In this document: piece after piece, positions 20,987-22,162 of the stretch
Layout of the letters: each line of letters begins with the position of its first letter
Numbering within the stretch: the first letter of the stretch is position 1
From: Jatrophihabitans cynanchi
GTDB lineage: Bacteria > Actinomycetota > Actinomycetes > Mycobacteriales > Jatrophihabitantaceae
Direction of reading: 5' to 3'
DNA: 64,000 bases
Assembly (NCBI RefSeq): GCF_027247405.1
Contig: NZ_CP097463.1
Location: 4,402,001 to 4,466,000 of the forward strand
Translations under genes and position numbers: made by a program
Notes under the pieces: generated by a model
What the model saw: the letters and a program-made list of their open reading frames with translations, nothing else
The model's database searches: none
Told to the model about the DNA's origin: nothing

Positions 20987-22162
20987 AGCCACGCGTCCTG
21001 GACCTTCAGCCCCAGCTCGTACCGGCCGAACAGCACGCCGGCCTTCTCCGGGTCGTTGATCGCGTGCACCCGGCCGGCGTGCGCGTCGCGCCAGAACCGC
21101 TGGATCGGCGTGCCGGCCCGCAGCGCCCGCCCGCCCGCGCTCTCGAACAGCCGGTCGACGGCCGCGATCGCAGCCGCCGTGGCGGCTACCTGATCGCGCC
21201 GCGCCCGCACCCGAAGCGGCATCGGCAGCCGCTCCCCCGCACCGGCGAGCTCGAGCCCCTCGGTGATGTTGCGCTCGATCGCCAGCACCGCGCCGTCCAG
21301 GCTCGCCGCGGCCTCCGCGATGCGCAACTGGTTGAACGGGTCCTCTGCCGCGCCCGCCGGTGGAGGCGCGGACCCGTTCGCGTGTCCAGCCGACATAGGC
21401 CTCGTAAGCCCCGGTGGCCATGCCGACGACCGGCACCGAGACGGAGTTGGAGAAGACCATCGCGAACGGCAGCCGGTACAGCGGCGCGGTGTTCTGCTGC
21501 TGGCCCGGGCCGTAGCACCGCCCGGTGTCCAGGAAGCTCAGCGTGCGGTACTCGGGGACGAAGGCCCGGTCGACGATGATGTCGTTGCTGCCGGTGCCGC
21601 GCAGCCCGATCGTGTCCCAGACGTCCTCGATCAGGTAGTCCGAGCGGGGCAGCAGGAACGTGCGGAAGTCGGCGATCGAGCCGTCGTCGTCGGTGACCAG
21701 CCCGCCCAGGAAGATCCACTGCGCGTGGTGGCAGCCGGAGGAGAAGCTCCAGCGCCCGCTGAACTCGAATCCCCCGCCGCCGCCTGCCGGAGTCGCCCGG
21801 CCCATCGGTGCGTAGGAGGAGGAGATCAGCGCGTTGCGGTCCGCTCCCCAGACCTCCTGCTGCGCGCGGTCGTCGAACAGCGCCAGCTGCCACGGGTGCA
21901 CGCCGAGCACCGAGCTGACCCAACCGGTCGAGCCGCATGCGCCGGCGATCGCCCGCACGCCGCGGTAGAACTCGATCGGCGAGGCTTCCAGGCCACCGAA
22001 GCGGGCCGGTTGGAGCAGCCGGAAGAAGCCGGTGTCCTGCAGCGCCTTCACGCTGTCGTCCGGCAGCCGGCGCAGGTCCTCGGTCTCCTGCGCACGCTCA
22101 CGCAGCACCGGGAGCAGATCTTGGACCGCGGCCAGGACCTCGTCAGTAGCGCGACCCGTCAT
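20983..22162 (-). pseudogene. hsaA: hsaA, 3-HSA hydroxylase oxygenase, interrupted by a frameshift
   Basis: The oxygenase of the two-component 3-HSA hydroxylase, an acyl-CoA-dehydrogenase-fold flavin monooxygenase. ATG 22162 has GGAGG five bases upstream. The first ~268 residues ([81 protein letters not shown]) are in one frame; from about 21350-21360 the rest ([56 protein letters not shown]) continues in another frame to 20983. Removing one base near GGGCGCGG restores a protein of about 390 residues, the usual length. It is either a genuine disruption or a sequencing/assembly error; all other parts look under selection. Confidence 0.85.

Follow-up and report, generated by a model that had tools for sequence, protein, structure and literature searches.

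HsaA is the oxygenase subunit of the 3-HSA 4-hydroxylase and is represented by the PDB entries 2rfq and 3afe and by the NCBIfam profile NF045629. In known HsaA systems the gene lies in an operon with hsaC and hsaB that is divergent from kshA and is preceded by a KstR-type operator, the KstR motif being that of PMC1995591. Close to the locus described here are the hsaADCB operons of four Jatrophihabitantaceae MAGs (L030-L033), whose HsaA is 73-77% identical to ours over the N-terminal part. Our analysis concerned a stretch of 64,000 nucleotides of Jatrophihabitans cynanchi (contig NZ_CP097463.1, positions 4,402,001 to 4,466,000), referred to as the window. The window shares with the four relatives the divergent kshA and, with L030, the possession of two KstR-type sites. 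In the relatives hsaA is intact, hsaD stands between it and hsaC, and a reductase gene adjoins kshA; in the window no reductase gene was found beside kshA and no hsaD between hsaA and hsaC, the operon order being hsaA-hsaC-hsaB, divergent from kshA. The relevant features are the following (window positions):

19527-20075, minus strand: hsaB, intact (NF045630, 287.5 bits, cut-off 230); GTGA overlap with the hsaC stop
20072-20986, minus strand: hsaC, intact (NF045631, 552 bits, cut-off 450); GTG start overlapping the hsaA stop (GTGA)
20072-22195, minus strand: open reading frame of 707 aa made by the shift, comprising the HsaA N-part, about 124 out-of-frame residues and HsaC
20983-21396, minus strand: C-terminal HsaA fragment as a separate open reading frame of 137 aa; possible ATG at 21394-21396
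20983-22195, minus strand: hsaA with the frameshift; two alternative starts (22195 and 22162), the original TGA stop being at 20983-20985
21352-21364, minus strand: frame-switch site, 13 bases against 15 in orthologues (codon alignment)
22206-22219, no strand assigned: KstR-type operator TAGAACCAGTTCTT between hsaA and kshA (motif search)
22304-22316, no strand assigned: second, weaker KstR-type site TGTAACGTGTTCT; L030 has the same second site
22372-23565, plus strand: kshA, intact, divergent from hsaA (Pfam KshA_C positions 1-207 of 207)
26134-27831, plus strand: kstD, 3-oxosteroid 1-dehydrogenase (947 bits, cut-off 788)
31507-32121, plus strand: kstR regulator gene (NF033703, 334 bits, cut-off 280)

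A first-pass annotation of this DNA had assigned the gene to HsaA and placed a split between frames near 21345-21365, and both statements were borne out. In a profile search, the N-part (21363-22195, minus strand; at least 277 residues) matched positions 1-255 of NF045629 with 415 bits, and the C-part (20983-21351, minus strand; 122 residues), in a different frame, matched positions 263-381 of 383 with 166 bits. Residues 1-277 correspond to 21365-22195 and the last 122 residues to 20986-21351. The two parts are thus adjacent stretches of one HsaA profile which, read together, span the whole of it, while no single chain above the 450-bit cut-off was found for the window hsaA. The HsaA of 2rfq and 3afe was split likewise, residues 9-266 and 274-392 being matched in separate frames. 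GC by codon phase is strongly biased on either side of the break (GC3 of 0.917 in the N-part and 0.951 in the C-part), its phase flips at 21340-21400, and a phase detector puts the switch at 21346.

Codon alignment with the four closest orthologues, all of the same family and all in a single frame, locates the event more narrowly. These read STGG-K-AA-DDSF, encoded by TCG-ACC-GGC-GGC-AAG-GCC-GCC-GAC-GAC-TCG-TTC or a near-identical series, whereas the window reads STGG-R-[G GCA]-EDPF (TCC-ACC-GGC-GGG-CGC-G-GCA-GAG-GAC-CCG-TTC), with four bases in place of two expected codons. The net shift is +1 or -2, with an identical outcome for the frame. It had been proposed that deleting one base would mend the gene. 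Such a deletion does restore the frame, but the product would be one residue shorter than every aligned homologue; the residue spacing favours instead the loss of two bases, for which the simplest source is a CG unit within a CGCGCG run. Since hsaA is in one frame in all 80 relatives compared, as in all 4 family orthologues, the window gene would, as judged from its sequence, be classed as a frameshift pseudogene, broken here with intact orthologues elsewhere.

The shift also changes what may be translated downstream. The N-terminal frame meets no stop before hsaC and enters hsaC in frame, so that ribosomes translating hsaA would no longer terminate at the GTGA overlap, and HsaC would therefore be made from the fusion or by initiation of its own. 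The earlier statement that hsaC and hsaB are intact agrees with their scores above the NCBIfam cut-offs. The stated translational coupling between the end of hsaA and hsaC holds only in part: the GTGA overlap is present, but the coupling is altered, as shifted ribosomes run on into hsaC. The long open frame into hsaC, the ATG of the separate C-terminal reading frame and a rare AGA codon (0.67 per 1000) directly past the site in the shifted frame could be taken to mean that activity is preserved, whether by programmed frameshifting, by a protein in two pieces or by an HsaA-HsaC fusion. We regard this as very improbable, given that neither the shift nor a conserved slippery element occurs in any relative and that, at such a GC content, alternative frames are expected to stay open over long distances. 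Still more far-fetched is a re-wired two-piece 3-HSA hydroxylase/dioxygenase, in which the broken gene would remain in use as an HsaA-HsaC fusion or as N-part plus C-fragment. A conserved programmed ribosomal frameshift was rejected, all relatives reading through in one frame.

Apart from hsaA, all tested steroid genes of the window are intact; for kshA an alternative upstream GTG start is possible at 22321. The KstR palindrome TnnAACnnGTTnnA and the gene for its regulator occur together here, with sites at 22206, 22304, 26119 (26119-26132, preceding kstD) and 31320, the last a perfect palindrome upstream of kstR itself at 31507. Elsewhere in the genome there is a further KstR-type site at a lipid-transfer/thiolase operon, an operon type associated with side-chain degradation. 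The genome-wide count of such sites showed no excess over a control pattern; what carries the argument from KstR sites is that they cluster at steroid genes. With hsaD missing, the window operon would not be self-sufficient in any case. No HsaD over the cut-off was found anywhere in the genome, the best match (271 bits, cut-off 400) being a paralogue in a second cluster.

Several other features of the window were recorded. A Ser/Thr protein kinase gene (24453-26099) lies near kshA and kstD, and its homologue in the MAG G001 is likewise beside kshA. Two DUF222 proteins (32158-33585 and 47897-49381) are 79% identical, 14 kb apart and on opposite strands, and likely represent a family that is mobile or has been duplicated. 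At 51314-58917 lies a type IV pilus cluster with a gene for a PilT-family ATPase (448 bits, cut-off 319); the open reading frames after it resemble genes for pilins, a prepilin peptidase, pilB and pilC.

Regarding the age of the break, dN and dS were computed for the C- and N-parts against four intact orthologues. Against L030 the values of the two parts are close (dN/dS 0.182/0.60 for the C-part and 0.155/0.51 for the N-part), and they resemble those between the intact relatives L030 and L033 (0.179/0.62 and 0.167/0.65), which indicates that the break is recent. Degradation long after the break was rejected, as the C-part resembles the N-part and intact relatives in both dN/dS and codon bias. 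The break is too recent for decay or else an error, and the absence of decay fits both.

An error of sequencing or assembly, with hsaA intact in the living strain, is the main alternative. It accords with a gene that is fully conserved but for one event, shows no further decay and is unbroken in 80/80 relatives, and with a very GC-rich site. The site is not a homopolymer, however, its longest run being GGG, and a frame survey of the same genome argues against a poor assembly. The survey used a seven-state codon-usage segmentation over 484 kb, to which the window, the second steroid cluster and a set of 20 stretches of 20 kb, spaced evenly, contributed, and its detector flagged 112 of 120 simulated two-base deletions (a sensitivity of about 93%). 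Among 218 same-strand frame switches the one in hsaA was conspicuous: it is flanked by long coding segments, and the upstream frame stays open for 1274 bases beyond it. Ten further flags were raised; seven, inspected by translation, seem to be ordinary gene starts, short overlaps or noise (one sits at a neighbouring gene pair), and the remaining three, with 46-53 open bases each, were assumed to be ordinary overlaps without inspection. Within the 484 kb, then, no other convincing frameshift was found at this sensitivity. Pervasive assembly errors were rejected, the further flags looking like ordinary gene features. The absence of a second clear frameshift and the non-homopolymer site make a real, recent mutation more likely than a bad assembly, and G001, which is without hsaA altogether at the corresponding locus, also speaks against an error. 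We consider an error unlikely, though by some way the least unlikely of the alternatives.

The first-pass annotation had further suggested that the strain could be blocked at 3-HSA. This is not supported by the rest of the genome, where a second steroid-ring cluster (L029, genome positions 3622000-3641999, i.e., 3.62-3.64 Mb) holds two HsaA-type genes together with KstD-, KshA-, reductase-, HsaB-, HsaC- and HsaD-like genes and an IclR-type regulator. HsaA2 (gene at 3.6355 Mb) is full-length and scores 605 bits, 155 above the NF045629 equivalog cut-off of 450, while HsaA3 (3.6295 Mb), a third HsaA paralogue, has HsaB-, HsaC- and HsaD-like genes beside it. HsaA2 is a plausible replacement for the broken hsaA to judge by its profile score. 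It is also divergent, with 52-55% identity to the HsaA of the family and a long branch (0.68) in the tree, and no KstR-type site was found within 2 mismatches in the kshA2-hsaA2 gap upstream of it; it may consequently serve another substrate or respond to another signal. No close HsaA2 match was found among the four relatives searched, and the G001 contig ends where HsaA2 would lie.

These observations bear on a special case of the real mutation, in which the break would block ring A degradation and 3-HSA would accumulate. When the HsaAB of M. tuberculosis is inhibited chemically, 3-HSA builds up (PMC4335503), which lends this case some weight and makes its prediction testable, and the divergence of hsaA2 and its lack of a KstR-type site point the same way. 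Against it stand the score of HsaA2 and the presence nearby of all expected partner types. With two paralogues at hand a block is less likely than the first-pass annotation assumed; it is possible but not indicated, and we consider it improbable.

On balance, it is probable that a recent, real small deletion broke the hsaA of the KstR operon and that its loss is tolerated through a backup, because the operon is no longer relied on, or both. In its simplest form, one CG unit of the CGCGCG run would have been lost. Translation would yield an HsaA truncated within its C-terminal region and joined via about 124 nonsense residues to HsaC, a product that is unlikely to act as a 3-HSA 4-hydroxylase. 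Tolerance would come from HsaA2 and the HsaA-like HsaA3 of the second cluster, and/or from a strain that no longer relies on the operon. We infer that the shift is biological, that 3-HSA is a substrate of HsaA2 or HsaA3, and that the operon hsaA is under relaxed selection. The most likely reading is that a gene of a redundant catabolic operon recently became a pseudogene, an ordinary event in a lineage that is losing this operon piece by piece. A practical lesson is that paralogues should be checked before an intermediate-accumulating strain is predicted from one broken gene.

If the break is real, the window would offer a snapshot of a steroid-ring operon losing its parts in one lineage, hsaD being absent and hsaA broken, and G001 would continue the pattern, hsaA and hsaB being gone, with the second, differently controlled cluster possibly taking over. 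G001 is a 77%-complete MAG whose kshA-hsaC locus (L034) lies inside one contig. The G001 locus runs kinase, kshA, hsaC and sec18872 homologue; the kinase-kshA and sec18872 neighbours are shared with the window, and the two group together in the KshA+HsaC tree (92%). In contrast to the window, hsaA and hsaB are missing and hsaC stands directly behind the operator. Two KstR-type sites lie in the kshA-hsaC gap of G001 (L034 2164-2364), where no remnant of hsaA was found; it looks like a clean loss, with hsaC first in the operon. Compared with the known HsaA systems, the window differs in its broken frame and in the absence of hsaD from the operon, and it resembles them in the two hsaA halves, which align to adjacent parts of the oxygenase subunit, in the kshA-divergent operon with hsaC and hsaB, and in the KstR-type operator.
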